From positions 558,001 to 622,000 of the forward strand of contig JAHNUO010000015.1 in assembly GCA_019787685.1 (NCBI GenBank): a stretch of DNA of 64,000 bases, in the 5' to 3' direction. A program made the position numbers and the translations under genes. The notes beneath the pieces were generated by a model. The model made no database searches, was not told the origin of the DNA, and saw nothing but the letters and a program-made list of their open reading frames with translations. The first letter of the stretch is position 1. The number at the start of each line of letters is the position of its first letter. This DNA is from Chiua virens. Lineage: Eukaryota > Basidiomycota > Agaricomycetes > Boletales > Boletaceae. Shown piece after piece: positions 9,385 to 62,991 of this stretch.

Positions 9385-12300
9385 ATGCGTTCCGGCGCCG
9401 GATTGCTTTTATTCATTTCAATTCTTTCTACACTTCGGGTTGCTTCTGGTCTCGGCTCGTCGTGTGACGCTCCTCTGGGTAGCGGCATCGCGTCGCCCGA
9501 GGAGCCATACTGGCTCGAGACGATCGGCCACTGGCACCAGGGCACGTCTCCCTTCCATCCCAACCCAAGTTCATATCAGGTTTTCCGCAACGTCAAGGAT
9601 TACGGCGCCAAGGGCGATGGCATTCATGACGATACGGCCGCCATAAAGTTGGTCCTTGACACCATTCTTTCGGACTTGGGCTTATACTTGCATTCGCAGC
9701 TCAGCCATGTCGCATGGCACCCGCTGCGGAGGAGGACGCTGGTGTGATTCTTCCACGTGCGTCTCATGTTTCCAACCACTGTCTCAAGACTGACATCGCA
9801 CGCCTGTAGTGTTTCTCCGGCAATCGTGTACTTCCCTCCAGGGTGAACGTGTTCTATTTGGTCAATTTGTTTGTTGCACTGATTCCGAGTCACAACAGCA
9901 CTTATCTCGTCTCATCACCCATCGAAACATACTATTATACCCAGTTGATCGGAGACCCTAAGAACCTCCCTATTCTTCGTGCAAGTCAAGGCTTTGAAGG
10001 AATCGCAGTTATTGGTCGGTTCTTTGAGGTCGTATCTTAGTAGTACCTCATCTGAATTGAGACAGACGCGGATCCTTATATTCCCGGTGGCTGGGGTGCC
10101 CAATGGTTCACGAATCAAAACAACTTGTGCGTGTCTTGAGCGGACTTTCGTTGCTGATGTGTTGAAATCGCTCTTCACAGCTTCCGCTCTGTGCGGAACT
10201 TGGTCATTGAGCTGAGGGATATTCCACCTGGGAGGAAAGCAACCGGTCTACACTGGCAGGTAGCACAGGCAACTTCGCTTGTGAATGTCGTGGTTGAGAT
10301 GTCGACCGCTTCTGGCACTAACCACAGAGGTGAGCCAAAGTCATCCACAATCGTCCTGTAAGTGAATCTTCCTTTAAACAGGGATATTCATGGAGAATGG
10401 AAGGTAGGGGTCCAAAACGAACAAATTGCCCAGCTTATCATCATGTGTCTATATCTTCTTAGCGGTGGCTTCATGGGCGGTATGTATTCAGAGTGAATGA
10501 AAAGTGTATACTGATATCTTGCCAGATATCATATTCAATGGAGGTAATCAATGGTCCTGAAAAAATGAAATATTCACAAACTTTCGTTCAGGGAAGACAG
10601 GAATTCATGTTGGAAACCAACAATTCACCGTTCGTAACCTTACGGTCAATAATGCTCAAGTTGGTGAGTCGGATCAACATCTGTGAATGAACATTAATCG
10701 AACGCTGGTCAGCTGTGTCGGGTATATGGAACTGGGGTCCGTCGTTGGACCATCGACTAATACTACCTTTTGCTGAAGTGTCCCTCAGGGTTTACGTTCC
10801 AAGGCGTTACTATCAACGACTGCCAGGTGAGTGGAGTTGGGCTACTTTCGATAAGGACTGTACTCGATCGTCTTTGAACATAGGTTGGCTTCGACTTGAA
10901 CGTCGGAGGAAACACAGTAACCTCTCAGGTGAAGTATCACTTCATAGACACATTTCTTTCGATGCTCACTAGGTATCTCCAGGGTGTTGGATCCGAGGCC
11001 ATTATTGATGCGGACGTTACGAATACACCCGTGTTCGTCCAATCTTCTGTCGCCAGCAGTGGCACACTTCCATACTCTTTGGTCCTGAACAATATCAAAC
11101 TGACGAACGTTCGGACGGCGGTTGGAGTTGCTGATGGTGTTACTATTCTTGCGGGTGGCACTAGGACCATCGTCTCGTGGGGTCAAGGACACGTGTATTC
11201 TGGAACCGGAGGCCAGAAGACCTGGGTGCAAGATAACATTGTTGCGGCAAACAAGCCCTCGATGCTTCTGGATCGCGCGGGTCGGATATTTGGCAAGACG
11301 CATCCTCAATATGTGGACTACGCGCCAAGCCAGTTCGTCAGCGTCAAGAGCAAAGGGGCCAAGGGTGACGGCAGGACGGACGATACAATCGCTCTTCAGC
11401 ATGTCTTTGATCAGGTATGGGTTACATCTGTGCAGACGCTGTCCTCGTCGTCCTGAGAGGATTGTGTTACAGTATGCCGGATGCAAGATCTTCTTCTTCG
11501 ATGCAGGCGTATACTATGTGACAGACACGATCACCATTCCAGCGGGAACTCAGATCGTTGGAGAGGCGTGGCCTGTTATCCTTGGGGGAGGCGAAAAATT
11601 CCAATCTGAGGCCAACCCCCGCGTCGTCGTGCGAGCAGGCACGGCTGGTTCCAAGGGTGTGCTCGAGATCAGTGATATCGTTTTCGCTACCGTCGGACCT
11701 GGTGAGCAGAATACTATCTTGGTCATCGTTGATATGCATGTGTTCCAGCTCCGGGTGCGATCGTGCTCGAATGGAACGTTCACGATCCGGACAACCGCCA
11801 AGGCGCTACTGGTCTCTGGGATACTCACATCAGGTAGGTTGTATAGACTATTGCGAAGGATTGGCTCTCATCTCTATGGTCGACAGACTCGGAGGAGGTC
11901 CGTGTTGGTAGATGCTCAGGACACGTAGCACTAACAAGGCACATCTAGCTGCCGGTACTAACATGCAAGAGGCACGGTGTCCACCTGGTTCCGTGGACAC
12001 GGATTGCCAGGCTGCCTTTTTGGGTATTCATTTGACATCTGGATCGAGTGCATACTTTGAGGTGCGTGACATGGATGCGTTTGCCACCATAATACTGATG
12101 AAACAAATGGTCAGGGGACTTGGGTATGGACTGCAGATCATGATCTTGATGCTGCCACTGGCTCGCCTCAAACGTCCATCTTTACTGGGCGGGGTATTCT
12201 CTCGGAATCAGCGGGTCCTGTCTGGTTAATCGGAACTTGTGAGTTGACCAATACCTTTTGTCCTCTTTGAACCTGAAAATGCTTTTACCACAGCTTGTGA

Positions 12301-16317: not shown

Positions 16318-17884
16318 TCAATCGAGATTGGTTTCAGGCTTGGCCATCCGAAGAGGTTGGTAACCCTGAAGCAAGCTTTCGACCCTAATGCAAACAAACC
16401 CTCAATCGTCACGCTCAAAGGTAAATGAGTCACAAGAGACATACGTAGCAGAATCATCGAAGCTCGGCATTTCACGTTTCTCTCCCGACGACTTGACAAT
16501 TTCGTCGTATTTCAGTTCGTCACGCCAATCCCGACGCCTGGGCAACCGTTCATGGTCATCTTCCAAAGTTCAAGTTGTATCCGATAACTGTCACTCACAG
16601 ATCGGAGACCTCGTCTCGTTTCAACCCTCCGCCAGCTTCGTAGGCACTCTTAAGCATGTCGTGGAGCCATGAATCCCGACGTCTAAGGCAATCATCGAAT
16701 TTTTTTTCCAGAATATAACAGTCAACAAAGACTCACGAAACAGAAATGTCGTCCGCTTCACGCGTCGCCATCAACAAGTTGACTTCATCAGGAAGGAGAT
16801 TCGAGTCACCATGCCAATCGGCCAATTCCCGACGTCTAAGGCAACCATTACTGTGATATTCGTACACCAAGTAAGTGAGACTCACGCGTTGGAGCCTTTG
16901 TGACTCCCCCCAAAAAAGTCTGCAAGAGAGGCGGCTGTGGAGACACTGTCAAACAAGCCGTTCACAATGGTTCCTGTGCCAATTCGTCGGCGCCTACAGC
17001 ATCGTCAGCCACCAGCTCTAAGGAGTGATGTTCGTATTTGCGGTAAGTGAGACTCACGCGTTGGAACTTTTGTGACTTCCCCCAAAAAAGTCTGCAAGAG
17101 AAGCGGCTGTGGAGACACTGTCAAACAAGCCGTTCAGCACGGTTCCTGTGCCAATTCGTCGGCGCCTACGGCATCGTCAGCCATCAGCTCTAAGGAGTGA
17201 TGCTCGTATATGTGGTGAGACTCACGCGTTGGAGCCTTTGTGACTGCCCCCAAAAAAGTCTGCAAGAGAAGCGGCTGTGGAGACACTGTCAAACAAGCCG
17301 TTCAACACGGTTCCTGCACCGATTCTTCTGCCCCTAGAGCAACGTCGATCATCAGTTCCAAGGAGAGACAGCGAAGCAGGACGCCAATGTGACTTACGCT
17401 AGCTCAGAAGTAGGGTGATTTGGCGTGCCGTGAGCGGGGATATCAGATTCCAGTTCCTGAAGGAATTGTACACCTTCAGGGGTTGTGAACAACCTGGTCT
17501 CCTTGAGTGTCCGTTGAAAACCGTCCTCATGTAGCACTTACTGAACAAGACTGTTGGCCTCGTCCTGAGTAATGAGACCATGTTGGACAGCATCATTCAT
17601 GACGGTAGTTATCCCCGTCTTGATGTCTTCCTCCCGTTTCGCTGGAATCTCAAGAGGCCCGTTAGGATCGTTCTTGAACGACGGCCACAGGAAGGGATTT
17701 TTTTCATTGACGCTCCTGGAAACTTCCCCGGAGAGCTCATTCACTGGGATGTCACTGTCTGGACGTCAGCAAGTCGTGATATGATAGCTTGTTTATACAC
17801 TCACCGGTAAGGTGTAGGAACGCCCATGACCGGTGCGACGGCTGCGGTCATGAAAGCGATAGAGAGTACAGTACAGGTGCGCAT
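16318..17884 (-). CDS. Secreted tandem-repeat protein with dibasic (Kex2-like) sites at exon starts
   Basis: I do not recognise the family. Ten exons read 17884-17805, 17754-17542, 17493-17398, 17333-17226, 17165-17058, 16993-16886, 16835-16737, 16682-16599, 16537-16445 and 16384-16318. They total 1056 nt, 351 residues, and every intron is phase 2. Residues 1-21 are a signal peptide (CTVLSIAFMTAAVAPVMG). Exons 4-6 encode three near-identical 36-residue modules containing VNGLFDSVSTAASLADFF, VLNGLF in two of them. Exons 4-9 each open with RR. Further KR pairs sit in exons 2, 8 and 9, giving nine dibasic sites. A G-x-L-x-x-DE-[AV]-x-x-L pattern recurs in exons 2, 7 and 8, so the diverged modules probably share one ancestor. 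The layout resembles fungal Kex2-processed repeat precursors such as Ustilago repellent; processing itself is inference. A dibasic motif that is simply structural is the alternative. Confidence 0.8.
16871..17386 (-). repeat. Three tandem exon-plus-intron units, about 170 bp each
   Basis: Units start 172 and 168 bp apart (exon starts at 16886, 17058 and 17226). Each holds one 108-nt exon of the minus-strand repeat gene plus its intron. Exons differ at only a few sites; introns are also alike, including the quasi-palindromic donor region GTGAGTCTCACTTAC in two units. Similarity across introns as well as exons points to recent tandem duplication. Confidence 0.9.
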
Positions 17885-18105
17885 GTTGTAATATGGTTAT
17901 GATAAGAAAAATAAGTCGATCAACGACGGTTTCAAAAGAGCGTTCGGGATTAGGATGTTTGCTAGAGAATACAGAAGAAGGCTAAGAAAAAATCAGATTG
18001 TGAACAAGCCATTGACAACGCGAGATGAATGTATAGACTCACTAGCCAGTACCTGTGAGCCGATTGAAGCAGAAGAGGACTGGTGGAACGGGAGAAGAAA
18101 CATAG

Positions 18106-18113
18106 TATTTATA
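18106..18113 (-). promoter_or_regulatory. Possible TATA box of the repeat-protein gene
   Basis: TATAAATA on the minus strand, 222 nt upstream of the ATG at 17884. The distance implies a long leader, perhaps with an intron. Confidence 0.35.
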
Positions 18114-19908
18114 CTCTCTCGGAGAACTTGATCAATTGAAGGACGCGTCGAGTCATCAAACCGCGTCACATGTGCAGGTTGCAAACTATCAACCGAGTGA
18201 CAGCTGGAAACAAACAAGTATTACACGTTGATGCGGCCCGTGATGCTGGCATGCCACCGCAGAGCTCCGGAGAAGTAGTACATACGTACGATTCTCTTGA
18301 ATCAATCGCTGACATGTCCGATCAGTGATGGTAACACGTTGCTAATGGTAGCAATAGCCGAGTCTGGTGGCATGACCTGGAAATGAGACCGAGTCGTAGC
18401 TTCTCGTTGAGTCCAAGTCTGTTATCGGGATAAAAGTGATACGCCCAGTCAAGTTAGTCGTGATAACCCCAAGCAAGCGCTTGATCATCATCTTGTACTG
18501 CGACGGGACCGCACGAGGATGCCAGAAGTGTCCGGAGTTTGCACGGGAGATGCCGATGGCAGGCCTACGGGTGACTCCGGCACAGGAGTTGACGTTTACA
18601 TACCACATCGACAGGGCGAGAGGCCGTTTCAAGTTTTCTGACTTTCATCCTGGTTGGCCCAGTGTGTGATGGTTGAGATCTGAGACCTGACTGACTCGGT
18701 CACTTTTCTTTGCTGTTTTGATCAATCGACGTCGGCGAAGGTTTGAAGCGCTTCGGGCTCCGGGATCAGGGTCCACGACTCGACGCACTATTATTTGAAC
18801 CTATGGACACGCCAAGATGTGACTAGAGAAAGGTACTGGAATTCGATTACAAATGGATTCATCAGGCGCGTTTCAATTTGTTGGCTTCTTGGACGACGGT
18901 CCTGTTAGAGCTTCAGAGGTGGGCCCATGTCTCCTCGCCTTGAAGTTATCTGCTTACCTTCAAGAACGTACGCGTAGACCCCTACGCGCCAGCAGCTATT
19001 CAACTGGCATGCATTTTCGACTCAATAGGATCATTCTGTCTCCGATCGACTTTACATACAGTCATCCAAACTTGTCCGTGGCGTCAAACGCACCACCCTC
19101 AGTGCGCCCGCCCCACATCAACTTTGGCCACTTGGAACGCCATCCAAAGACGCTCAAGGTCCGGCATTTCTGTTCTGGAGTCTGGTCATGATCTGCTAGT
19201 AGCATGTATTTTCTTGTGCAAGTCGAACGTATGTCATTTTTGTTCACTTGTGTTCCGTGACAGATCGGTAACATCATATATGTCTTCCACGATACTCTAC
19301 AAGTACTGTCGGCTGTTTTTGAGAATGCAATGCAGACAATCTCAAGCTCAAGACCTGGATATTGCAGTGTATCGGTGTGGGAGCATGGCTTATCAGTGAT
19401 ACATTCATGATTGGCCGGGGCCTTCGATGGCTGATCAGACCGTTTACAGTAAAGCCCGATTAGAAGAAACACAAAGTGCCCTATGCCGCTCGTGTCGCGA
19501 CATTTTTTGATCTCGGGTGCCTGGTCGCGACCACATCGCTGATTATATCAATAGTATGTAAAAACTCGAAACACGCACCCAGAATCGTACCTTATCTTTA
19601 TATTACAGTCAAAAATGACTGTCACGTTCGGGGCACACGAGAACTCATTGGTTCAGGACTGCGAAATCAGCACACGTGGTTATGCCAGCAGTTGCTTGCC
19701 TCCTTCGGACGACCAGTCACGAGTCTAGTTATGAATGTTTCTATTCTTTTCCTATTTGAATGATCTTACGAGATGGTACGTTCTGATGGAACTCATATTT
19801 ATGGGGTTCAATTCATGGCGCGCTAACTGCCGGGCAGAGCAGGTCCCGAGGTGAATGGAACACTATCGTTCATTGCTACCCCCATTTGGATGATCACAAA
19901 ATGCTAGC
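18114..19908. other. Stretch with no supported gene
   Basis: A frame at 18391-18669 (plus strand) is open for about 90 codons and ends in TGA. It lacks an ATG and could be a 3' exon, since it follows a TAG acceptor. Frames at 18853-19191 and 19476-19763 start with ATG but show no motif. None is strong enough to call. Confidence 0.35.
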
Positions 19909-19916
19909 ATAAAAAC
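19909..19916 (+). promoter_or_regulatory. Weak TATA-like element before amine oxidase
   Basis: CATAAAAA, about 66-73 nt before the start codon at 19982. Confidence 0.3.
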
Positions 19917-19981
19917 GTTGCTTTGATCAGGCTTCTCTGTCTAGCACACATCTGCTCCCCGCATACACATAGAGTTTTATC

Positions 19982-22400
19982 ATGCCTTTTAATCGCGACC
20001 CGCTTGCTCTCTACGAAGATCTCCTCATTGAAGACCATCGCACGTCTTCCCGCACGCATGATTTCATCGCCAAGCACTTCAAGGCGTCCTCAGTCACGCC
20101 CGAGATGCTCCAATTCATCCCCGAGAAAAAAGTGGGCATCATCGGCGCAGGTATCGGCGGGCTGTATATCGCAATGATGCTCAGTTCGATCGGCGTCGAT
20201 TATGAGATCCTTGAGGCATCGACACATACGGGCGGTCGTTTGTTCACGTATGCATTCAAGGGCGACGAGGCTGGCGAGAATGACTATTATGTACGTATCT
20301 ATTTCCTGTCTCTTTCTTTCATGTCACCGAGCACGCGATGGGATTGGTGATGTTCCTCGTTCACTGTTAGGATGCGGGCGCCATGCGGTTTCCATTACCG
20401 AAGATCAAGGATGGCGTGTACGGGGAAGGGTTCATGAAACGACTGGCCAAGCTGACGCAGTTCCTCGGGATGGAACGCCAAGAGGACAATCCCGAGGGCG
20501 AGATCCTACCCTACTGTCACGAAACGTGGTTCAGCTACTACAATGGAACCCACGAACCGCCGTTTGATGCGTCTGGGATGGGTGTGGATGAGGAATATAT
20601 CCAAACAGGCGCGAGTGCTATCAGCGCCGACTTTAAGGAGCCGTTTGTCAGCGCGCTCAAACAGGATGCAGTGTCAGGCACAGGTCGAAAGTGGGGATGG
20701 GAAGCAATCAGGAGCTTCGATGCCCTCTCCGTCCGAGGGTACTTGGCGACCAAGTATATACCGAGTGCCCGCCTGCAGATACCCCCGAGGCATCTTCCTA
20801 CCAACGTCATCAACTGGATGGGGCTCACAGACGGCAGTAGTAGTGGTGGTTATGATCGCTCTTTTACAGAAGCCATCTTGTCATCCATTGCGTTTAACAA
20901 GGAGAGCGTCGATTGGAAGTGTTTCAAGTACGTTTCACGAATGTGTTTGATCCCGCTTATCTCACTTTTTGCCAGAGGAGGCTCTCAGACGCTGACGAAG
21001 AAAATGGAGAAATGGCTCAAAGATAAGAACAACGAAGTCCGATTCAACCAGCGGGTGACCGCGGTCAGCGAAACGAATACTGGTAACACACTCGTCGTTG
21101 AGCTTCCTGCCAATTTTCCAGGGATTCCAACCGAAGCCAAACTGGCACCTGCCAATGCCACTCCGGATCTGGTTATCAACGACAACTCAACACCTACCCG
21201 GAAAAAGTATGAACTTCCCTGCATAACCGTGACGACGAAAAAGTGGGATAAAAACGGAGGCGAGACTTCCCAAGAGCACAAGTACCTCCACGTCTTCTCC
21301 ACGTTGCCCCTTCCCGCGCTCCGTAACATCAACCTCGAAGCTGCCAAGCTCAACACGCTGCAAAAGAATGCACTACGCCAATCTGACTATGGCCCCGCGG
21401 TCAAAATTGCAATTCGGTTCTCCAAAGCGTGGTGGGCCGACCTTGGTATCCATGGCGGACAGGCCAACACTGACCTCCCGATCCGTACCATTGTGTATCC
21501 GTCGTACGGTACCAAGGAGAAGCCATGCAATGTCCTCATTGCGAGTTATTCCTGGACGACCGACGCGGAGCGGATTGCCGCGCTGAATCAGAACCGAGCG
21601 TGCTTGAAGGACCTCGTTCTCGCAAATTTGGCAGAGGCGCACAAGCACAAGGACAATAAGGTCACCCATGAGTATTTGTCAAGTTTGTTCAAGGACATGC
21701 ACGTGCAGGACTGGAGCCGGGACGAGTTTGCGATGGGTACGTTCTGTCTAACCACGTTTGCTTCAACGTACTGATTGTTTCTTTTTGCGACACAATGCCA
21801 TGATTTTTAGGAGCGTTTCCGTACTTTTGTCCCGGCGACTTTGAAGAGGGGTTTACATCTCTCGTGTACCCCGCTGCGAGCAAGCGATTCCATTTCGCGA
21901 GCGAGGCAGTGAGCATTCGGCATGCGTGAGTCATGATTTCTGTTACATTTCCTTAGCCCCTTCTGTTATCTTCCGTTCGATGACATGGATGCTGATCGTG
22001 ATGAAACTGGAACTGTAGCTGGGTCGCCGGTGCGCTCAACAGCGCCTGGAGAACTGTGAACACGTACCTCACGGTCACGGGGCAACGCGACAAGAGGGTG
22101 GACTTTTTGAAGCGGTGGGGTCAGAACGCCGATTGGAGAGAACCTATCTCTGTGAATGTGGACTCGGACAAAGTCGTGATTGGTGATGCTTCTAAGTCGC
22201 AGTTGGAGGATGGGGTACCCGCCAGCGGCTACTCTGTGTCCGCGACAAAAGGTAAGGTCGAGACGGGGAAGGTAAAATCGGCTGCCTCAGACGACCTGGT
22301 CGACCAGTTCATCTTGTTTGTGGACGAGCTGCTCGACGAGCTGAAAACGTTGGACGACAACCGGACCGGAGAATGTACTGATTCGAAGCAGGGCGAGTAA
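19982..22400 (+). CDS. FAD-dependent amine oxidase, L-amino-acid-oxidase-like
   Basis: Flavoenzyme expected to deaminate amino acids or amines, releasing H2O2 and ammonia. Exons 19982-20290, 20371-20927, 20976-21736, 21811-21925 and 22019-22400 give 707 residues. Residues 51-60 hold the dinucleotide-binding VGIIGAGIGG; EAS..GGR follows. DAGAMRFP opens exon 2, a motif typical of L-amino-acid oxidases. Near the C-terminus YFCPGDFEEGFTSLVYP and HFASEA..RHAWVAGALNSA form the FAD-closing region. There is no signal peptide, so it is probably cytosolic. The last roughly 60 residues, ending in an acidic helix-like stretch (DELLDELKTLDD), extend beyond the catalytic core. Monoamine- or polyamine-oxidase activity cannot be excluded. 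Confidence 0.85.
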
Positions 22401-34195: not shown

Positions 34196-37100
34196 TCATT
34201 TGCTCCAGGCGGTGAACGTGCTCTGGAAGCCATCCAAGTTGTCACTCGCCTGTATGACGCCGTTTTGACCCACGCTGAGTTGATATGTTGATCCGACGGT
34301 CGACAGGCCGTATACACTGATACTCGATGCCGTGTCAGTGTTGAAGATGTGTGTCTGACACGAGTTGGTGGTGAGGCAGGTCTGGGCATAGATCTATGGA
34401 ATGTGTCAGACGATCAGGCAAGGAGATATTGATATTCGAATAGAAACACACTTGGTAAAAGCTGTAAAAGCCAGCACCTAAGTGAGAGTTCAGCCACTTA
34501 ACTAAAGGTACCTGAGATACTACGCACCAAAGATGAGGATGTTGGACGAGGATTGCACGTACATAGCCCAGGCAGAGGTTATACTATTAGAAAAGGTGGG
34601 ATCATGATAAGTGGCAGAGGAATTATATGGTGCTGGAGCGGCAGGGGCGGGTTGATAATAAGGCTGATACAGACAATAAGGGTTACCGTCGACTACGAGC
34701 CGGGAGAGAACAAGGATCGCGTACAGTTTCTGTCTGAGCAAAGCCGATATAGTGGTTCTGTGCGTTCACCAAGTTATACTGGTAGAGAGCCGCATGTTCC
34801 GCTTGAATGGCGTTTTATCAGGTCTGCATCTCAAGGAACAATGCATCTGAAAACTTACAAGCTACAATGGGAGCATATCAGGCCCAGCAAAGTTAAAAAG
34901 GTATGATGTGACTCACAAGTTCCGATGAACCAAACAGGACCCGCTGATTCCGAGAGTATACCACGCCCAGTAAAGACCGAAGTTAGAGACGAGGCGGCTG
35001 AATCAAGATCGTGGTCTGCAGTCCATACCCACGTTCCCTGTCCGTCCGTTGGTCCATATAGCAAGAAAAGTGAATCGATATTACAAACCTCAAAGTATGC
35101 GCTAGACCCGGATGTTAGATGGATTCCCAAGAAAGCTGCCTGACAGGCTGTGTTCACAGAGCCTGAAGGACACTGCGCATTTTGCATGTTGGTACCCACA
35201 GCTAGAGGCATTTGTTAATTGGTACAGTATACAGAAGAAGCACCGCACTGACCGCCTCCAAGTCTGACAATCACAGGGATCAGAAAAGTGGCGTGATAGT
35301 ATAGATAGCCTACCTGAGGTGCGTATCCCAAAGGCCTGCGGCGCCTTGCTGCCCGGATGGGTCGTGGACGTTCCATTCAAGCAAGATCGCACCGGGAGCT
35401 GGCAAGGATTCATATAAGATATCACCAGGCAGAATTCTACTTACCAGGCCCAACTGTGGCGAAGACGATATCACTGATCTCGAGGATGCCCTGGGAGCCA
35501 GCTGTGCCCGCTTGTACGACCACTCGTGGGTTGGCCTGAGATTGGAAATTACTGCCTCCCCCGAGGATGACAGACCATGCCTCTCCGACGACCTGGGTTC
35601 CCGCTGGGATGCTGATTGTATCCGTGACATAGTATACGCCCGCATCGAAGAAGATGATCTTGCATCCAGCATACTGTATGAAGGACGTAAGGCGCCATTC
35701 ATTGTCTTTAAGCTGTAAACAAACCTGGTTGAAGATATTTCGGATAGCTGCGGTATCATCCGTCTTTCCATCACCTTTGGCACCTTGGCTCTTAACGCTC
35801 ACGATCTGGCTGGTGGCATAGTTCGCGTACTGAGGGTGCGACTTGCCAAAGATTCGGCCGGAGCTATCAAGCAGCACTGAGGGTTTGTTGGCCGAATAAA
35901 CGGCGCTTTGTACCCAGCTCTTCTGGCCTCCCGTTCCAGAATATACGTGCCCTTGGCCCCAAGAAGCGATGGTAGTGGTACCTCCCGTGAGGATGGTAGC
36001 TCCGTTGGCATCGCCGACCGCCGTCGATACGTTTGTGAGCTTGATATTGTTCAGAGCCAACGCAAAAGGGAGGGTACCATTACTGGGAACGGAGGACTGA
36101 ACGAATATGGGCGTGTCGACGACAACGGCATCAATGATAGTCTCCGAACCAACGCCCTGAAGATGTCATGTGGATATCGAACGACCGTATCCGCGAAAAG
36201 ATACTTTACCTGATCTTCCTCCGTGATTCCCCCGACAGTCAATTGGAAACCAGCCTACCAGTGTGAAGGTTGATCAGATACTCGGGGCTTCGGAGGATAA
36301 GCGGCTCAAATATACTCACTTGACAGTTGTTGATAGTAACGCCCTGGAATGTAAATCCTGATTGGGTTATCAGTAGTACGTTCCATTGGCTGATACGGTG
36401 GAAGCACGGACCCCAGTTCCAGATACCCGATACAGCTAGCAGTGGTACTACACTGAGTTATTGTTCAATTACATAAGTTGCGCCTCAACTCACCGGTGTT
36501 GCAGTTATTGACTGTAAGATTGCGGACTGTGAATTGTTGGCTCCCAACCTCGATGCCAATCTTTCCTGATCAAAGTTCAACATTATGATCTTCGTTCGCC
36601 AATTGTCTTGAATACCTCCATTGAAAACAACGTCTAGTGAGGCGTCAGTGGCAATATCATAGTGTATACTCAATTGCCGCAACTTACCCCCAATGAAACC
36701 ACCACTAACACAATGAAGACGATGTAAGTGGTCATCCCTCAGTTATGATAAACGTCTACCTTCCGTTCTCCATGAACAATCCTATTGACAAGAGATTAGG
36801 CTCATCTCAATGAATGGCTTCCATCACTGACCTATCTGGTTGGTGCCCGAAGCAGTCGACATCTCGACCACAATATTAACCAACGAAGTCGCCTGAGCCA
36901 CCTGCCAGTGCAAACCAATGGCCGAGTTACCGGAGGGAATCCGTCTCAAATCGATGATTAAGTTCCGCGCCGAGCGGAAGCTACATCAAGATAAATCTCA
37001 GCGAAAGACCAAGGACATGCACTCAATAGTGCCTACAAGTTGTTTTGATTGGTGAACCACTGAGCACCATAGCCATTGGGAATGTAAGGGTTGGCGTCTA

Positions 37101-39022: not shown

Positions 39023-39102
39023 AGCTCTAATTTGAAGCAGACGAGCATCATTTTATACGTCTATTATCGCCATCATATTTGTCTCACGCTCAGCCAATCA
39101 CG

Positions 39103-42100
39103 ATGTCGCAACAGCCACCGCCCCCGTTACCTTTCTCTTTTCCCACCACCACGGTATCTCCTTCGACTGCCGCTGCGACCACTCCTCAAACTATGGTCGC
39201 GACAACCTCAAATCCGTCGAATCCGATTACGTCGAGTCCCTCAACCCAACCGGCTCCGACCGCGAGCTCCAACTTAGTGAGCTCAGCTCCTAAGATTGAG
39301 AAGCTACGCGATGGGAACTGGCTCGCATGGAAAGTGCGCATGAGAGCCGTTCTCAAACGGAAAGGGGCATGGGAAGGCATTATTGAAGGTAATGTCCAAA
39401 AGCCTAATGACCCCTCGGAAGCCGCAATCCGGGAAACAAAGGACGCAGTCGCACAAGAACTCATCTCGACTTCCATTCGGGATGAACAAGTCGTGCATAT
39501 AACCGACTGCGACACGGCGTTCCACGCATGGGAAACTCTACGTACCGTACACGAACCTCGCGGACAAGAGTCCGTACTCGCTTTGTTCAAACAATTGTAT
39601 AATACGGAAGCTCAGGACGAGACTAACATCACGTCCCACTTCCATCAGCTTCAGATCATACGAGAGCGCCTCATCGTTGCCGGTCACGCTAAAGAAGTCG
39701 ATGACTCAATGTTCAAAGCTATCATCGTCGGGTCACTTCCCGCCAGCCTCGATAGCTTTACCGGCGGCTACCTCGGCTCTCAAAGTGTGATCCAAAGCAA
39801 TCAAAACCTATCGGGCGACATCTCGGTCCCCGATTTTATCTCGCGTCTTTCCGTTGAGTGGCGAAAAAAGCAGAAACTGAAAGAAGAAAGAGAGAAATCA
39901 GGTGACGTCGCAAACACGGCTTTTACTTCGCGCAAGACGACGAAGGGACCACGTCCGTGCGCCATTTGCGGCTACACCAACCACCTGACTTTCCAGTGTC
40001 GCCACAAAGGGAAACCCAAATGTGGCATATGCCAAAAGTTTGGCCATTCAGAGGAAGAATGCCGCTACAACCTTCTGAATAAAGGGCGCCAAAATCCAGG
40101 CAAATTCGGACGGGGAAACTCGCGACCCGGGCCGAAAGGAAAAGAAAAAGCACGTGCAAAGGTAGTAAAAGAAGAATCAGCCAGCGAAACAGATGAGCTC
40201 GAACGAAGCTTTGTAACAAATGTATCTATTGCTGATGACGTCGAAATGAAAGAGGCCAATGAGGCCGACTTTTCAGCTTATCCATGGATCGCCGATACTG
40301 GCGCATCCACCCATATCTGTGCACAGCGTGAAGCGTTCCTCGACTACAAGTCGTTACCAGAACGCATCGTCAAAGGGCTTGGCGACAAACCGGTCGCCGC
40401 TCTTGGAGAGGGCACCGTCATTATACACACGCGTGCTGATGACAAAATTCGTACGCTACAGCTATTCAAAGTCCTGCACGTACCTGAGGCCCGAGAGAAT
40501 CTTGTCTCTATCGGGCGACTTGATAAAGCAGGCGCACATGTCACCTGTGCAGACGGCCGGATGACAATACATAAAAATAACGAACTTATTGCCGTTGCTA
40601 CAATACATCGAAATCTATATTACCTTGACGTCGAAACAGCAAGCTACAAAACCAATGTAGCAATAAAGATCAAACGATCTTGGACCTGGGAGGAATGGCA
40701 TCGCCGCCTGGGACATATCGGCATTGCTGGACTGAGAAAACTTCACGGAAAGAACCTTGTCGACGGGTTCTCACTCCAACAAAGCCTGCAGGACTTCGAG
40801 TGCGAGGCTTGTATTAAATCGAAAATTACGCGGCAACCGCTACCAAAGACGGTCAGCCCGCAAATAAGAAAACCGGGTGACCTCACTCACTCAGATGTTT
40901 GGGGCCCAGCCCGAGTTCCATCTTCACAAGGATACCGGTATTATATTTCTTTCGTGGACGATGAATTGCGACACGCCACGATTAGCTTCATGAAAACGAA
41001 AGATGAAGCTCCTAATAAGGTAAAACAATATGTCTCACATATCGAGAGACAGTATGGGCACGTACCCAAAGCAATCCGTGCCGATAACGGACGAGAATAT
41101 GTCAATAAAAATTTACAGACATGGTGTCTCGATAAGGGAATTGAGCTCCAAACAACTGCTCCCTATACTCCGGAGCAAAATGGCGTCGCAGAACGCTGGA
41201 ATAGAACGGTTGTCGAATTAGGTCGTGCAATGCTTTTCGCGCATGACTTACCAAACGAGCTATGGCCTGAAGCGATGTCTCATGCCGCTTATATTCGTAA
41301 CCGGGCGTACACACGCTCCGTACCCAATATGACACCATACGAAAAATGGTCTGGGAATCGCCCAGACATTTCCTTCATTCAGGAATTTGGGCGACCTGTA
41401 TGGATACTGAATCAAGAATTAAACCCATCAAAATTGGACTCACAGGCTAAGAAGTTCATCTTCGTTGGCCACGAGGATGGTCCAAAAGCAATCAAATATT
41501 ATGACCCCCTTAAAAGAACAATCAAAGTTTCTCGTGAGTACCGTTGGCCGATTGCTGTCACGCAAAGCATACCAGATCATCGGTTTGAGGGGGAGCATGC
41601 TGGAGAAGGTAGCAAACCTTCATCCGGCATGAAACGAAAAGATCTAGATCAAGAATCAGATCTGAATCAAAGTAAAAGACATCGAGTCGAAAGCGACGTA
41701 CCTGAACTGACACCCGATCCTGATGATAATGACTCAGAAGATGAGCATGACCAACAGGAATCAATTGCCAAAGTCGCTGCCGCCGTATACACTGCTATAA
41801 GTGAATCACACATTAGCAGTAATGACCCAAAAACGCTCAAAGAAGCAATGAACTCACCTGACTGGCCCCAATGGGAGAAAGCCATTCAAACTGAGCTCGA
41901 AACATTGAAACAGATGGGCACATGGGAGTTAGTTGATCCTCCCGATGATAGAAAGCCTGTCACGAACAAATGGGTCTTTGTGCGGAAATACGACAGGAAT
42001 GGCAATCTAGAAAAATACAAAGCGAGATTAGTAGCTCGCGGATTCAGTCAGGTACCAGGGATGGACTACAATGAAACTTTCTCACCTGTAGTCCGGCTTG

Positions 42101-43377
42101 AAACAATTAGAGCGATATTAGCGCTCACCGTTGCTGAAGACTGGGAAATCCAGCAAATGGACGTAAAAGGGGCTTACCTAAATGGTAAACTCAAAGAAGA
42201 GATTTATATGAACCAGCCAGAAGGATTCAGTGACGGTACGGCTCGACTATGCCATTTATTAAAGACATTATACGGATTGAAACAATCTGGTCGAGGGTGG
42301 AATGAGGAGCTTGATAACAAGCTCAGCGGCATAAATTTCGACCGCCTCTTATCAGATCCATGCGTCTATATCCGGCGTACTGGAAAGATTATCGAGATCA
42401 TCACTGTATGGGTTGATGATCTATTACTTTTCTCCAATGATAAAAATCAGATGACTAAACTAAAACAAAATCTAAAAGGGCTATTCGATATCACCGGTCT
42501 TGGTGAACCGAGCAAACTCGTTGGTCTAGAATTCACACGTGACCGAGAACGGGGAACGCTTACTATCAAACAAACCAATTATATTGAAAGTGTTCTAGAC
42601 AGGTATGGGATGCATGAAGCTAATCCCGTTTCTACCCCGCTCGATCCAAATCTGAAGCTCGAACCACAAGACGCAGCTACTAACCCATCACAGTATTCCC
42701 AGGTCGATGGGAATTACGCCTCCTTAACGGGATCACTTATGTATGCCGCAATTGGTACACGTCCCGACATCGCATTCGCCGTAAATAAACTCTGCTCGTT
42801 CAATAACAATCCAGATCTTGCCCATTGGACCACGGCGAAACGAGTCTTGCGCTACCTCAAGGGCACAAAAGATCTTGGAATAACATATGCGCGCAATAAC
42901 AAACAGAGCAGTTTCTACGGTTACGCGGATGCAAGCTTTGCCGCCAATAACGATTTAACTTCGACGAGCGGCAACATTTTTATTCTCAATGGAGGTGCCA
43001 TCGCCTGGAACTCAAAGAAGGAACCAACAGCTGCGCTTTCTACTGCCGAGGCCGAATTTACTGCAATGGCCAGAGCCGAGAAGGATGTGATCTGGCTCAG
43101 AAACCTTTATTCCGAAATTGGTTTCGAGCCCGAAAACGCGACCATCCTCTACGGCGACAACAAATCCGCTATTGCCATTGCGACGAATGCCCAATTTCAC
43201 AAACGGGCAAAGTATTTCAACCTACGGAACTTACATATGCGGAACACGATCAAAATTGGCTGGATAACCCTCGTATATTGTCCAACTAATGATATGACCG
43301 CTGATATACTCACAAAAGCCCTACCACGACAAAAACATTTACAGCACTCCAAAGCTCTCGGCCTCCGTGTGGCTTGA
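39103..43377 (+). CDS. Copia Gag-Pol polyprotein (1424 residues, intact)
   Basis: Encodes all functions of the retrotransposon in one frame. Residues count from ATG 39103. A Pro/Thr/Ser-rich leader (1-70) precedes a UBN2-type Gag core (WLAWKVRMRAVL). A zinc knuckle lies near 286-320 (CX2CX4HX4C, CGICQKFGHSEEEC). The aspartic protease has WIADTGASTHIC near 396. GAG-pre-integrase is WHRRLGHIG. The integrase core keeps D (SDVWGPA), D (RADNGREY) and E (QNGVAER) between about 597 and 697. Reverse transcriptase runs from NKWVFVRKYDRNGN to the catalytic VWVDDLLLFS near 1102, where the usual Tyr of YVDD is Trp. RNase H follows with GYADASFA, ALSTAEAEF and YGDNKSAI. No stop or frameshift interrupts it; TGA at 43375-43377. 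Confidence 0.95.
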   Translation: MSQQPPPPLPFSFPTTTVSPSTAAATTPQTMVATTSNPSNPITSSPSTQPAPTASSNLVSSAPKIEKLRDGNWLAWKVRMRAVLKRKGAWEGIIEGNVQKPNDPSEAAIRETKDAVAQELISTSIRDEQVVHITDCDTAFHAWETLRTVHEPRGQESVLALFKQLYNTEAQDETNITSHFHQLQIIRERLIVAGHAKEVDDSMFKAIIVGSLPASLDSFTGGYLGSQSVIQSNQNLSGDISVPDFISRLSVEWRKKQKLKEEREKSGDVANTAFTSRKTTKGPRPCAICGYTNHLTFQCRHKGKPKCGICQKFGHSEEECRYNLLNKGRQNPGKFGRGNSRPGPKGKEKARAKVVKEESASETDELERSFVTNVSIADDVEMKEANEADFSAYPWIADTGASTHICAQREAFLDYKSLPERIVKGLGDKPVAALGEGTVIIHTRADDKIRTLQLFKVLHVPEARENLVSIGRLDKAGAHVTCADGRMTIHKNNELIAVATIHRNLYYLDVETASYKTNVAIKIKRSWTWEEWHRRLGHIGIAGLRKLHGKNLVDGFSLQQSLQDFECEACIKSKITRQPLPKTVSPQIRKPGDLTHSDVWGPARVPSSQGYRYYISFVDDELRHATISFMKTKDEAPNKVKQYVSHIERQYGHVPKAIRADNGREYVNKNLQTWCLDKGIELQTTAPYTPEQNGVAERWNRTVVELGRAMLFAHDLPNELWPEAMSHAAYIRNRAYTRSVPNMTPYEKWSGNRPDISFIQEFGRPVWILNQELNPSKLDSQAKKFIFVGHEDGPKAIKYYDPLKRTIKVSREYRWPIAVTQSIPDHRFEGEHAGEGSKPSSGMKRKDLDQESDLNQSKRHRVESDVPELTPDPDDNDSEDEHDQQESIAKVAAAVYTAISESHISSNDPKTLKEAMNSPDWPQWEKAIQTELETLKQMGTWELVDPPDDRKPVTNKWVFVRKYDRNGNLEKYKARLVARGFSQVPGMDYNETFSPVVRLETIRAILALTVAEDWEIQQMDVKGAYLNGKLKEEIYMNQPEGFSDGTARLCHLLKTLYGLKQSGRGWNEELDNKLSGINFDRLLSDPCVYIRRTGKIIEIITVWVDDLLLFSNDKNQMTKLKQNLKGLFDITGLGEPSKLVGLEFTRDRERGTLTIKQTNYIESVLDRYGMHEANPVSTPLDPNLKLEPQDAATNPSQYSQVDGNYASLTGSLMYAAIGTRPDIAFAVNKLCSFNNNPDLAHWTTAKRVLRYLKGTKDLGITYARNNKQSSFYGYADASFAANNDLTSTSGNIFILNGGAIAWNSKKEPTAALSTAEAEFTAMARAEKDVIWLRNLYSEIGFEPENATILYGDNKSAIAIATNAQFHKRAKYFNLRNLHMRNTIKIGWITLVYCPTNDMTADILTKALPRQKHLQHSKALGLRVA

Positions 43378-45932: not shown

Positions 45933-48900
45933 CTAGTAATAGTACCACGCAGTCATCGTTTCCTGGAACCCATCTGCGTTGCCGACCTCGTTGACGATGC
46001 CGATTTCTCCTATGCTCAGCTGCCATGTCGCCCCGATCGTGGATAAGCTATACACGTTCACGGATGATACTGATGCATCGTCAATGTTGAAGATCTGTGC
46101 TTGGCATGTATTGCCGCTGAGACATGTTTGGCCATAGTTCTAAGTGAATATGGTGAGCACAGATCTGGCAGCGTCAGATTCTGGAAATACCTGGAAGAAA
46201 CTGTAAAAACCAGCACCTTGAAGGAGGAGATCAGTCAGTACGGATGAGATGGACAAACGATTATACGCAGCCACACCACTCACCAAAAAGAAAAATGTTG
46301 GACGACGTCTGAATGTACATCGCCCACGCATTGTCGAATCCGCCGGGGAAGCTCGGATCGTAGTAATCTGGGTTGCTGGTATACGGCGCCGGTGGAGTGG
46401 GATCTGGTTGATAGTAAGGCTATGATGGTATGCACACCTTTAGCTTGCAAAGTCAAGCGACCAAACTGGACACCCACGGTCTCTGTCTGCGCAAACCCAA
46501 TATAATGGTTTTGAGCGTTTGCCAGGTTGTACTGATAGAGGGCCGAGTGTTCCGCTGAACGAATAAGATCATCTTCCCTTGCACAGTGCGACATCACCTT
46601 TGAGTTACTTACATGCTAGGCCACTGTCAGTATCGCCCGGGATGAACGCTTATCAGACGCACAAGTACCAATGAACCAAACAGGACCTGCTGATTCCGAG
46701 AGAATACCGCGGCCGGTGAAAATCGATGTTTGACCGGAAGCATCTAGATCGTGGTCTGCAGTCCATACCCAAGTCCCCTAAGCAACTTTTGAAATCGCTG
46801 CATTGCGTGGATAATCAAGTACTACGCACCTCAAAATATGCACTTGATTGTGAGGTCAGGTAAATACCCAAAAACGCAGCTTGGCATGCTGTGTTTGTGG
46901 AACCGGCTGGGCACTGGGAGTACTGCATGTTAGTCCCGATAGCTAAGCATGCGCATACATGAGTTATTCTTCAAAGTAGACGAAGTGGATTACGGACCTC
47001 CCCCGAGACTATCAACAATTCAGTCACCCGCGTCGTTAGAACATGGTGACAAACTCACCGAAGATGACTGTCCCATAGACCAGCGGCACCTTGCTCTCCC
47101 GCCGGGTCGTGGACGTTCCATTCAATCAAAATTGCTCCAGAAGCTATGAACGAGTTAGGTTTAACCACAGGAACTAGAGCCTAGACAGTAACTAGCAGCA
47201 GTACCCACCAGGTCCAGTTGTCGAGAACAGCATATCACTGATTTCCATAAGGCCCTCTGAACCGATGGCACCTGCTTGGATAACAGGTACCGGGTTGTTC
47301 TGGTCTTGGAAGTTGCTTCCGCCTGCTAATATGACTGACCAAGCCTCCCCAACTATCTGAGTTCCGGCAGGGATGGTAATGGTATCCGTAACGTAGTACA
47401 CGCCGGCATCAAAGAAGATGATCATGCATCCAGCATACTACGGCGAGCGAATAAAAAAGTGAGAAATGTAATCAATTCACACACATGTAGGGGATCGAAC
47501 ATTACCTTGTTGATAACGTTTTGGATGGCTGCAGTGTCATCGGTCGTGCCATCCCCAGTTGCCCCTTGACTCTTGACGCTGATGATCTGACTCGTAGAAT
47601 AATCAGCATATTGAGGGTGCCCCTTCCCAAAGATTGCTCCGGAACTGTTGAGAAGAACAGAAGATATCTCTGGTGATACAAGACTGCCCTGAACCCAAGT
47701 TGATTCACCAGAAGTTCCTGTATAGACATTTCCCTGACCCCAGGATGTGATAGTAGTTGTACCACCTTCCAGGATGGTGGCTCCACCAGAAACACCAACT
47801 GCGATTGGAACGTTGACCAATTGGATATTGTTTAATACGAGGGAGTACGGAAGCGCGCCATTGCTTGCTGCTGACGATTGAACAAAAATCGGGGTGTCGA
47901 TAACAACAGCGTCTATGATGACTTCGGATCCAACGCCCTGAAGCTTGTGATAAACAGTAGGACATTGGCGCAAAATGTTTCTTACCTGGGTCGCGGATGT
48001 GGTCCCATCGACAGTCAACTGAAAGCCAACCTATCAAGAAATTCTCAAGTTACCACGCTTCTTAAGGAGGGGAAGCAACTCGACGTACCTGGCAGTTGTT
48101 AATAGTAACCCCTTGGAACGTGAAACCTAGGAGACATGTCTGATGAGGGTATTATCACTAGATGAGACATAACAGACCCCAGTTCCAGGTTCCCGACACC
48201 GCTACGAATTGGCCAATCAACATCAATTTGTCACGATCATCACTATACTCACCAGTGTTTGCATTATTCACAGTCAGATTGCGTACTGTGAATTGCTGGT
48301 TCCCAACAGAGATACCAATGTTCCCTGATGTCGAATTCACGTTATGATCTCCTTTTGATAATGAGTATACTGACCGCCATTGAATACAATATCTGCTCAG
48401 AGTATTCGGCTCGAATGCTTGCAAGCTGGATGTGATCACATACCTCCCATAAACCCGCCACTAGGAAGGCATAAGCGAGTTACTCTTATTGTTTCGCTTT
48501 ATACCAATAGACCTCACCTTCCGTCCTCCATATATAGACCTATCACGCACATCAGCCAAGTGTAAACATTCCTAGAATTGCACCCACCTTGTTGGGTGTT
48601 TCCGGAGGCAGTTGACATTTCGACTACAACATTGACCAGCGACGTTGCCTGAGATACTTGCCAGTGTAAACCGATTGCAGAGGTTCCCATTGATATCTGT
48701 CGCAAGTCGATGATCAAGTTCCTTACGGAGCGGAAACTTCACCAACAACAGGTCTCAGTATGCTAAGAACCACCAAAATCGAAATAGCTGTCATACAAGT
48801 TGTCCTGGTTAACAAACCACTGAGCGCCACCGCCATTGGGAACATAGGGGTCCGCGTCTGTCGCCCATGAGATCCGTGAGAGCATTGTATCGGAAGAGAC

Positions 48901-57927: not shown

Positions 57928-58173
57928 ATGTCTTGGGAATTAGTCGCAATAGCATTCATCATCTCTTGCACGCTCACGACCTACTTCTTCGGTTATATCG
58001 CATTTTACCTTACAAACAAGGTACAAGAGTCTCAACGACCAATTTACGTCTCTATCAAACGACGAGACTACCCTTTCGCAGTCACCTTCGGTCTCTTCTC
58101 ACCCTACGAAGAATACGGAACAGCCACCGCTAACGCTTGGGGAGCACCAGAACCAACCATTGATGCTTGGTAA
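57928..58173 (+). CDS. Accessory frame 2 of the gypsy element: small membrane protein
   Basis: 81 residues from ATG 57928. A strong N-terminal membrane segment (LVAIAFIISCTLTTYFFGYIA) is followed by a short polar tail. The stop codon lies two bases before the gag ATG at 58176, an arrangement suited to reinitiation. Such a frame ahead of gag is unusual for chromoviruses; function unknown. Confidence 0.5.
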   Translation: MSWELVAIAFIISCTLTTYFFGYIAFYLTNKVQESQRPIYVSIKRRDYPFAVTFGLFSPYEEYGTATANAWGAPEPTIDAW

Positions 58174-58175
58174 AT

Positions 58176-59246
58176 ATGTCCACACAAGATATCGCAGATG
58201 CGACTGCGGCCATGAACGACCCTAAGGAAAAAGACGCAGATCGGCTGCAAGCAGCCATATTTATTATTACACAAATGTCAGGAGCCATTGCGGCCCTGCA
58301 AAACAAACCCCAATCCACGGGAAAGGTCGGAATATTCGCCGACCCTGGACCCTATGATGGAGAACCAGCCCGATTTGAAGAGTGGTGGGCCAAAGTAAAA
58401 GGATGGATAGACGTAAATCAGAACGCTATCACACCCGGCTCATACACCGCAGTACTTGCTGTGTTATCTCGCCTAAAAGGAAAACGTGCGGCGCAGTTTG
58501 CCGAAACTCGCCTAGCACAAGGGACCAACCTCACATGGGGACAATTGGTCATAGATGTAGAAGGGATGTTCCACCAGAACAACAAGGTTGACTGGGCTCG
58601 CACGGAGCTGGAACACCTTGAACAAGGAAACATGCAGGTCGAAGACTTCCTGATTCAATGGGAAGCACTATGGCATCAAGCCAAAATAGACCCCTCACAT
58701 GCCATAAGACTCCTCGAGGCAAACACAGCACGAGGATTAATACACCAAATCTTCAGGGATAGAACAAGAATCACCCTGCAAGAACCAATGTGGTGTGACC
58801 CACTTGCACCCAAATATGAATCGGATCGCAACAAGGCTGTGACGGCATACCTCACCTTGATAAGACAGGCAGGAAATTCATTGGAGCAACTCCAATATGT
58901 CTGTGGGGAACGAACCAAGAAAAAGGACCCCAACGCAATGGACATCGGCTCCACGTCACGATATGAAGTTGACAAAGATGGCTGGTTTACCGGCAAAGAA
59001 GTCAGGGCAGTTGGCCAAAGGAAGGTCAACCCCAAAAATAAGTGCTACAACTGTGGGAACACAGGACATATCCCAAAGGAATGTCCCAAACCCAAAGTGC
59101 AGTGCCCCGACTGCAAATATTACGCCGGCAACCACAAAGCCAATTGTGGAAAATCTCGAAAAGCGAGATCCACCACACAACAAAAAGAAGCCCCTAAAGC
59201 TTCAACTTCTTCAGTCCCGGAAAAGGACCCCTTCGTGGCCATCTGA
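58176..59246 (+). CDS. Gypsy Gag (nucleocapsid) protein
   Basis: Retrotransposon Gag core (FEEWWAKVKGWIDVN, FHQNNKVDWARTELEHLEQ, VEDFLIQWEALW) with a zinc knuckle near residues 288-301 (CYNCGNTGHIPKEC) and a second Cys-rich segment. It forms the particle and binds RNA. The TGA at 59244-59246 is followed in the same frame by 26 more sensible codons ending at TGA 59325-59327, so the first stop is probably a mutated CGA. Confidence 0.85.
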   Translation: MSTQDIADATAAMNDPKEKDADRLQAAIFIITQMSGAIAALQNKPQSTGKVGIFADPGPYDGEPARFEEWWAKVKGWIDVNQNAITPGSYTAVLAVLSRLKGKRAAQFAETRLAQGTNLTWGQLVIDVEGMFHQNNKVDWARTELEHLEQGNMQVEDFLIQWEALWHQAKIDPSHAIRLLEANTARGLIHQIFRDRTRITLQEPMWCDPLAPKYESDRNKAVTAYLTLIRQAGNSLEQLQYVCGERTKKKDPNAMDIGSTSRYEVDKDGWFTGKEVRAVGQRKVNPKNKCYNCGNTGHIPKECPKPKVQCPDCKYYAGNHKANCGKSRKARSTTQQKEAPKASTSSVPEKDPFVAI

Positions 59247-59305
59247 GGAATGAACCCTGAGGAAGTACAGGCATATTATTACGACAAATATGAAACCGAA
59301 AGGAA

Positions 59306-59312
59306 GGGAAAA
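59306..59312 (+). promoter_or_regulatory. GGGAAAA slippery heptamer for -1 frameshifting into pol
   Basis: In the gag frame the bases are grouped G GGA AAA, the canonical X XXY YYZ form. A -1 slip here enters the frame that continues without stop into the protease. It lies before the terminal gag stop at 59325. Confidence 0.6.
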
Positions 59313-62300: not shown

Positions 62301-62991
62301 TTCCTCTCGCACAATTCTCATACAACAGCAAGAAACACACTGCCACTAAATTCTCACCATTCGAAATCACACGTTCCTATGTTCCTAGAATGGGAATTAT
62401 GCCACAAACTATGAAAAACCTGGCTGCTCAGAACTACATCACGGACTTTCCGAAGTTCTAGAACAAACCAAATCTAATATAGATAAAGCTGTGGAACATA
62501 TGAAAAACGTTGCAGATAAATCGAGATCAGAACCTCCTTCCTATTCCATTGGAGATAAAGTCTGGCTCTCTACTACAAACCTAAAAATAAAGCAACACCC
62601 CAAATTCACAGACAAGTGGATTGGACCCTATGACATAATTTCCATGCACGGTCCAAATGCTTTAAAGCTTCGACTCCCATGCACTATGAGAATACATCCA
62701 GTTGTAAATATTTCTCAGGTCAAACCATATAAGGAACACCTCCCAGAACAGCCAGTTTACAAACCGCGACCTGTCGTAATCGGAGATAACCGAGAAGAAG
62801 AATTCGAAGCAGACTATATTGTCGATTCCAGAATGAAGGGACGACGCTTAGAATATCTCATACACTGGAAAGGTTATGATGATAACGAAAGAACTTGGGA
62901 ACCATTAAAGAATCTAAAGAATGCACCGGATCTCATATCTGATTTCCACGAAGCACATCCAGATGCCCCAAGAAAACTAAAAGTCACATAG
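59313..62991 (+). pseudogene. Gypsy pol with nonsense codons and a frameshift
   Basis: Order of domains: protease (ALLDSGANAIFIHEDYV, about 59640), reverse transcriptase (FVPKKDGKKRMVQDYRYLN, then VIVYIDDLMIF near 60666), RNase H (ECDSSDFATGAVLS), integrase with an HHCC zinc finger and D/D/E residues (ADFITDL, SDRGPQF, TERMN), and a C-terminal chromodomain (EFEADYIVDSR, LIHWKGYDDNERTWEP). Breaks: TAA 60566-60568 within the reverse transcriptase; TGA 61367-61369 after the RNase H region; TGA 61784-61786 inside the integrase zinc finger; and a reading-frame change near 62430-62445. The frame otherwise resumes cleanly after each break, so inactivation is recent. Last stop at 62989-62991. Confidence 0.92.

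Follow-up and report, generated by a model that had tools for sequence, protein, structure and literature searches.

The closest described systems to the gene reported here are the Kex2-processed repeat proteins, or KEPs (Le Marquer et al. 2019, PMC6339444; Umemura 2020, PMC7329392; Vogt et al. 2022, PMC9769878). KEPs occur widely among fungi, and the last of these papers describes their functions as largely unknown; knockouts of six kep genes of C. cinerea had no apparent axenic phenotype, and the authors propose a role in biotic interaction (PMC9769878). A protein passes the KEP screen, as its authors outline it, when it has a signal peptide but lacks a transmembrane segment, yields four or more fragments with three of them similar, and consists of repeats over at least 15% of its length (PMC6339444). 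By its description, the repellent precursor Rep1 of Ustilago maydis is likewise a secreted basidiomycete precursor that is cut by Kex2 into similar peptides, and MiSSP8 of the ectomycorrhizal fungus Laccaria bicolor is a repetitive Kex2 precursor with a role in mycorrhiza formation (PMC7329392). For MiSSP8, the parallel with our gene is no more than a possible one of lifestyle. Among animals, the pacifastin precursors of arthropods are described as secreted multi-peptide proteins with dibasic separators, for which the authors invoke exon duplication; pacifastins are animal protease inhibitors, and the likeness to our gene is one of analogy only (PMC2689174).

The Chiua virens (Boletaceae) gene that we describe resembles the KEPs in having a signal-like N-terminus and several KR/RR fragments, at least three of which are similar, with repeats occupying 28% of the protein. 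Unlike the KEPs, it spreads its repeats over phase-2 exons, one to each, and the predicted cleavage site coincides with the splice junction; it also has payload fragments that are not repeated, and its leader and upstream region are common to paralogues with different payloads. In the main texts of PMC6339444, PMC7329392 and PMC9769878 the word "exon" is absent and "intron" occurs once, in connection with cDNA cloning. A literature search on exons, repeats and precursors, covering titles and the openings of abstracts, gave no exon-per-repeat fungal precursor among the matches listed. From the sequence comparisons below, it is very probable that the gene encodes a secreted KEP-type peptide precursor and belongs to a family with a shared leader and varied payloads.

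The probable precursor gene and its predicted peptides

We analysed a stretch of 64,000 nucleotides, referred to here as the window. The gene lies on its minus strand (17884..16318) and consists of ten coding exons that encode a 351-aa product. The nine introns are GT-AG and 48-64 nt in length; all are in phase 2, as the initial annotation had proposed. The spliced translation is letter-for-letter identical over its 351 aa to the annotated Chiua virens database protein JVU11DRAFT_9545, and the gene model is therefore not dependent on the reader. The extra KR pairs described for exons 2, 8 and 9 are also present. RR had been placed at the first codons of exons 4 to 9; this is correct for exons 5 to 9, while in exon 4 the pair occupies codons 2-3 (G-R-R). 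The features of the gene are as follows.

17805..17884, minus strand: exon 1, signal-like peptide MRTCTVLSIAFMTAAVAPVMG / VPTPYR (hydrophobic core and cleavage point by eye)
17542..17754, minus strand: exon 2, leader/pro-region with KR at residues 66-67 and the conserved TQDEAN motif
17398..17493, minus strand: exon 3, end of the leader (EGVQFLQELESDI), common to paralogues C12a and C4
17226..17333, minus strand: exon 4, payload module, GRR + IGAGTVLNGLFDSVSTAASLADFFGGSHKGSNA
17058..17165, minus strand: exon 5, copy of the payload module, RRR + IGTGTVLNGLFDSVSTAASLADFFGGSHKSSNA
16886..16993, minus strand: exon 6, copy of the payload module, RRR + IGTGTIVNGLFDSVSTAASLADFFGGSHKGSNA
16737..16835, minus strand: exon 7, RR + ELADWHGDSNLLPDEVNLLMATREADDISVS
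16599..16682, minus strand: exon 8, RR + DSWLHDMLKSAYEAGGGLKR / DEVSDL
16445..16537, minus strand: exon 9, RR + DWRDELKYDEIVKSSGEKR / EMPSFDDSAT
16318..16384, minus strand: exon 10, C-terminal tail VESLLQGYQPLRMAKPETNLD and stop, with no dibasic site at its start
16871..17365, minus strand: tandem array of exon + intron units, 172-nt unit (Tandem Repeats Finder, 2.9 copies, 89% matches)

The N-terminus MRTCTVLSIAFMTAAVAPVMG is conserved in the paralogues, and its signal-like character was judged by eye. A Pfam-A scan of the protein gave nothing above the curated cut-off (best E 0.14), and a PDB sequence search returned only two matches, at E 0.5-1.

Cutting the protein in silico after KR and RR, from residue 23 onwards, produced ten fragments of 8-66 residues (including the trailing basic pair) and two single Arg residues, as compared to the four or more fragments of at least two residues that define a KEP. 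At least three similar fragments are also required for a KEP, and here three fragments of 33 residues (35 with RR), derived from exons 4-6, were directly seen to be alike. They account for 3 x 33 of the 351 residues. The proposed layout of one peptide per exon holds in part: exons 8 and 9 are cut internally, and other fragments join residues of exons 1-2, 2-3 and 9-10.

In the processing route that we propose, the precursor would enter the secretory pathway, kexin would cut it after RR/KR in the Golgi, and a carboxypeptidase would remove the trailing basic residues. The predicted products are linear peptides: three near-identical 33-mers (IG[TA]GT[VI][LV]NGLFDSVSTAASLADFFGGSHK[GS]SNA), a 31-mer, and shorter peptides of the WL/DW type. 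After removal of the basic residues, the expected peptides would include IGTGTVLNGLFDSVSTAASLADFFGGSHKSSNA and DSWLHDMLKSAYEAGGGL.

We compared the hydrophobic moments of 11 peptides, six from the target and five from its paralogues, with those of shuffled sequences, and four exceeded the shuffles at P < 0.05 (uncorrected for multiple tests). These were the exon 4-6 peptide (P = 0.033) and the exon 8 peptide (P = 0.006) of the target and the last peptides of C12a (P = 0.001) and C4 (P = 0.022). The exon 7, exon 9, exon 9-10 and leader fragments of the target were not amphipathic beyond the shuffles, and neither were the C12a repeat, the C4 exon 4 peptide and the C5 repeat. The earlier remark that several of the peptides are potentially amphipathic is thus a weak one, true of two of the six target fragments and not of the other four.

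Tandem exons and the second haplotype

Exons 4-6 differ from one another mainly at synonymous sites. Within one gene copy the synonymous difference was 13-26% (pS 0.13-0.26) and the non-synonymous difference 1-6%. Over six within-copy pairs dN/dS was 0.05-0.33, from small counts of 3.5-7 synonymous and 1-4.5 non-synonymous differences per pair. The pairs are not independent of one another. When the counts were rounded, Fisher's test gave P < 0.05 for all but one of the six; the exception, 15e5-15e6, was not significant (P = 0.20).

A second copy of the gene is found on contig C49, colinear with the first and 95% identical over about 7 kb. The flanking amine oxidase and tRNA methyltransferase genes are on C49 as well, at 99% and 98% respectively, and each of them occurs in two places only. 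Because both of the flanking genes tested are found there at 98-99%, we regard C49 as the other haplotype and rejected it as an independent paralogue. The C49 allele encodes 352 residues and retains all ten exons, with one in-frame codon indel. Between the haplotypes, 16 of 1056 exon sites and 14 of 510 intron sites differ, and dN/dS over the whole gene is 0.24 (Fisher P = 0.0035). Exon 5 shows no synonymous difference between the haplotypes, so the exon triplication is older than the haplotype split.

The gap between the precursor gene and the amine oxidase gene (window 17884-20371) is about 2.5 kb on the target contig, C15, and about 24 kb on C49. A large structural variant between the haplotypes adjoins the precursor gene.

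Paralogues with a common leader

A genome search with the target protein gave distant partial matches, and these led to paralogues, for which we built the following models by hand.

C12a: 351 aa, 10 exons
C4 (G000:C4 about 881570-883127): 314 aa, 11 exons
C5 (G000:C5 about 1355655-1356901): 382 aa, 3 exons
C4b: 164 aa, 3 exons
C34: 217 aa, 4 exons, the last of them doubtful because the third intron would be only 30 nt

All 35 introns of the six gene models (the allele not counted) are in phase 2, a count that is not fully independent because the paralogue models were built by seeking open frames. As an independent check, the nine target introns agree with JVU11DRAFT_9545 and the first six introns of C4 agree with JVU11DRAFT_3266. 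The latter protein corresponds to the first 234 residues of the C4 model; it runs into intron 7 and stops short, and the C4 model has four more in-frame exons beyond its end.

Upstream of the coding region, the following elements were recognized.

18101..18114, minus strand: TATA-like core promoter element (GTATAAAT...), motif by eye
18036..18055, minus strand: family upstream 20-mer CAGGTACTGGCTAGTGAGTC, which holds the predicted 5'-UTR splice donor
17982..18042, minus strand: predicted 5'-UTR intron of 61 nt (GTGAGT...TTAG), with a donor motif conserved upstream of paralogues

In the aligned family upstream regions the splice donor lies inside the 20-mer CAGGTACTGGCTAGTRAGTC, and GTATAA occupies the TATA-like position in seven of the ten. 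As predicted from the sequence, the target transcript probably includes one more 5' exon that does not code. When up to two mismatches are allowed, the 20-mer occurs at 10 places in the 48.3-Mb genome, and its reversed control at none. The family leader follows at eight of the ten, including two second-haplotype copies, one on C49 and one on C4 near 10 kb (matching C34). Of the remaining two places, the first stands ahead of payload-like exons that lack a leader, and the second is a remnant in which no gene was seen by eye. Together, the 20-mer and the leader form a search handle for members that have no obvious sequence in common among their peptides.

At the sequence level, the paralogues share the predicted 5'-UTR intron motif and the leader and carry different payloads. 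Four aligned leaders have 29 invariant columns out of 152. The C5 payload consists of eleven near-identical QAYMNALH[GD]LL...KR units and divergent end units, all in one exon. C12a contains a 38-39-residue exon three times, with KR in the middle of the exon, C4 contains two copies of a four-exon block, and the target carries exon 4 in three copies. The target, C12a and C4 have thus each repeated a different set of phase-2 exons, which supports the earlier suggestion that exon duplication alters the peptide set.

The payload modules were also compared with one another. Homology of the exon 4-6 module to the exon 4 modules of C4 and C12a was rejected as not significant (P = 0.18 and 0.21); against the C12a repeat, P was 0.03. 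A likeness of exons 8 and 9 to the final exons of C12a and C4, as an RR-W terminal module, is suggestive only (three pairs, P = 0.0015-0.0105), and the shared Arg adds to it. Exons 7, 8 and 9 show no significant homology at the protein level (three pairs, P = 0.18-0.64); in the DNA, the three are almost the same at their intron ends and in their first codons.

Further loci were seen by eye. On C11 (about 538300-539300, minus strand) there is a degenerate relative of the C5 array, with in-frame stops, KH in place of KR, and no start codon that we could see. C12b looks degenerate or leaderless. From C4:922937 onward the upstream 20-mer stands before RR-W payload-like exons and the leader is absent; this locus is perhaps a rearranged or dying member. 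C18 has two KR repeats behind a different N-terminus. C34 and C4 near 10 kb hold a member with repeated DHGPE exons, in copies that are 97% alike over 3.2 kb and that are presumably haplotypes. Weak matches on C8, C26 and at C4:181207 (read on the plus strand) were unconvincing by eye and were dropped, as was C34:269934. Pfam matches above the cut-off, to Gag_p10 and CBF/Mak21 in C5 and to DUF4168 in JVU11DRAFT_3266, were taken as chance matches to repeats.

A protein database search with the target returned only its own gene product, JVU11DRAFT_9545, among the 8000 candidates sharing most words. A search with the C12a protein returned only JVU11DRAFT_3266 among 799 candidates, with C12a itself absent, and a search with the C5 leader and first repeats returned no protein among 637 candidates. 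As these searches need shared five-residue words, they may miss distant relatives; as far as they reach, the family is found only in Chiua virens. The C5 gene is apparently unannotated. The failure of the database to return C5 and C12a, together with the truncated annotation of C4, suggests that annotation misses such genes.

Splice junctions, predicted kexin sites and alternative explanations

The target has nine dibasic clusters, and six of them fall no more than one residue away from where an exon begins (P = 2e-5 by random placement in 200,000 draws, with the duplicate exons 4-6 counted as independent). Six of the nine non-first exons, namely exons 4-9, have RR within their first three codons, and in each of the five that start with Arg the second codon is Arg as well. 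Four genes together have 30 non-first exons, and in 13 of these an Arg codon comes first (binomial P = 5e-6 for the Arg+Lys frequency of the target, with duplicate exons counted in full). The junctions of these exons typically read TAG|RCGYMG, and in the paralogues they often encode RS or RK. Kexin is expected to cut RS or RK poorly. The register of dibasic clusters at exon starts was not significant in C12a (1/7, P = 0.45) or in C4 (1/3, P = 0.28), which has only three dibasic sites, and in C5 it was 0/15. The paralogues therefore do not follow the layout of one peptide per exon in this respect.

Given the RS/RK reading and the lack of exon-start enrichment in the paralogues, the junction motif seems to have been passed on as part of the exon and, in the target, to have been turned into a kexin site. 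The RR at exon starts could thus partly be inherited junction sequence. This backs the idea of exon cassettes, yet it also yields the main rival explanation, in which a role in splicing came first.

According to this rival, the secreted product functions whole, as a surface or wall protein that contains repeats, and its dibasic motifs are by-products of duplicated splice acceptors. A splicing-driven motif would yield the RR exon register without a protease, and the recurrence of the junction as RS or RK, the 13 of 30 Arg-first exons and the lack of dibasic enrichment at paralogue exon starts all speak for it. On the other hand, the target has KR away from the junctions too (exons 2, 8 and 9), all five of its Arg-first exons have Arg as the second codon, and the C5 repeats each end in KR with no introns between them. 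We consider an uncut protein unlikely.

C5, whose leader and upstream region are of the target's kind, has the form of a textbook Kex2-processed precursor with KR-spaced repeats, and it supports kexin processing of the target as well. At least one place in the genome encodes a kexin P-domain; the count is a minimum, since the domain is interrupted by introns. The surroundings of this place read by eye like a membrane-anchored kexin. C. cinerea is reported to have three kex2 genes (PMC9769878). The initial annotation had inferred a Kex2-cut secreted repeat precursor; the C5 array, the kexin-like gene and the mostly synonymous differences among exons 4-6 all speak for this.

Another possibility is that the gene encodes a precursor of the dikaritin type, whose cores are cyclised by UstYa oxidases. 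Dikaritin precursors have a signal peptide and Kex2-separated repeats. With its signal-like N-terminus and KR/RR-spaced repeats, the target has a layout resembling that of, for example, the ustiloxin precursor as it is described in PMC7329392, and UstYa (PF11807) oxidases are encoded at no fewer than 18 places in the genome. However, none of the 18 places found is on C15, C49, C4 or C12, and the single place on C5 lies some 177 kb away from the paralogue there. The repeated 33-mer also lacks Tyr, in contrast to exons 8, 9 and 10, which hold one Tyr each. Since none of the UstYa places found falls on the contigs of the target, we expect linear peptides rather than cyclic ones of the dikaritin type; we set a dikaritin cluster aside and regard this explanation as highly improbable.

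A decaying or non-functional tandem duplication, spliced into an open frame by gene predictors, is just as hard to credit: C11, C12b and the leaderless C4:922937 look degenerate by eye and the protein searches gave Chiua virens proteins only, but the frame and splice sites of the target are intact in both haplotypes and dN/dS is low between haplotypes (0.24) and between tandem exons (0.05-0.33), and on this selection and haplotype comparison a pseudogene was set aside.

Returning to the KEP-type precursor, every internal coding exon is symmetric (2-2), and in exons 4-9 the predicted cleavage site lies just behind the acceptor, so that such an exon could be gained or lost without breaking the frame or the processing. 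If this reading is right, the family shows how KEPs gain and lose peptides, namely through the duplication of symmetric exons, each with a protease site of its own, downstream of a promoter region and a leader that the members have in common. It could further be speculated that the family is a fungal "exon cassette" system, in which a shared upstream region, 5'-UTR intron and leader are combined with interchangeable phase-2 exons and exons 4-9 fuse the splice acceptor with a kexin site. We put this forward tentatively and hold it to be rather doubtful. Duplication, loss or skipping of any of these exons would leave frame and processing in place, so that peptide mixtures could diversify between genes, by exon duplication, and within one gene, by alternative splicing.

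By analogy to other KEPs of agaricomycetes, the likeliest role of the peptides would be in communication or competition with the biotic surroundings (host root, other microbes). A role towards roots or competing microbes is plausible for Chiua virens, which we take to be an ectomycorrhizal bolete. On this reading, concrete candidate peptides and paralogues are available for study in such a fungus.

Several other features were observed in the window. An uninterrupted frame of 1448 aa at 39031-43374 has Copia-type gag, integrase and reverse transcriptase domains, and frames at 58164-62988 read by eye like the gag, reverse transcriptase and integrase of another retroelement. Three dispersed frames (10884-11453, 35440-36165 and 47425-48030) give pectate-lyase-like matches to PF12708, of which one exceeds the cut-off by a wide margin, another narrowly exceeds it, and the third falls slightly short. 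Next to the C49 copy of the precursor gene is DNA with about 70-73% similarity to window 34203-35206 and 46657-46945, which lie near two of these PF12708 frames.
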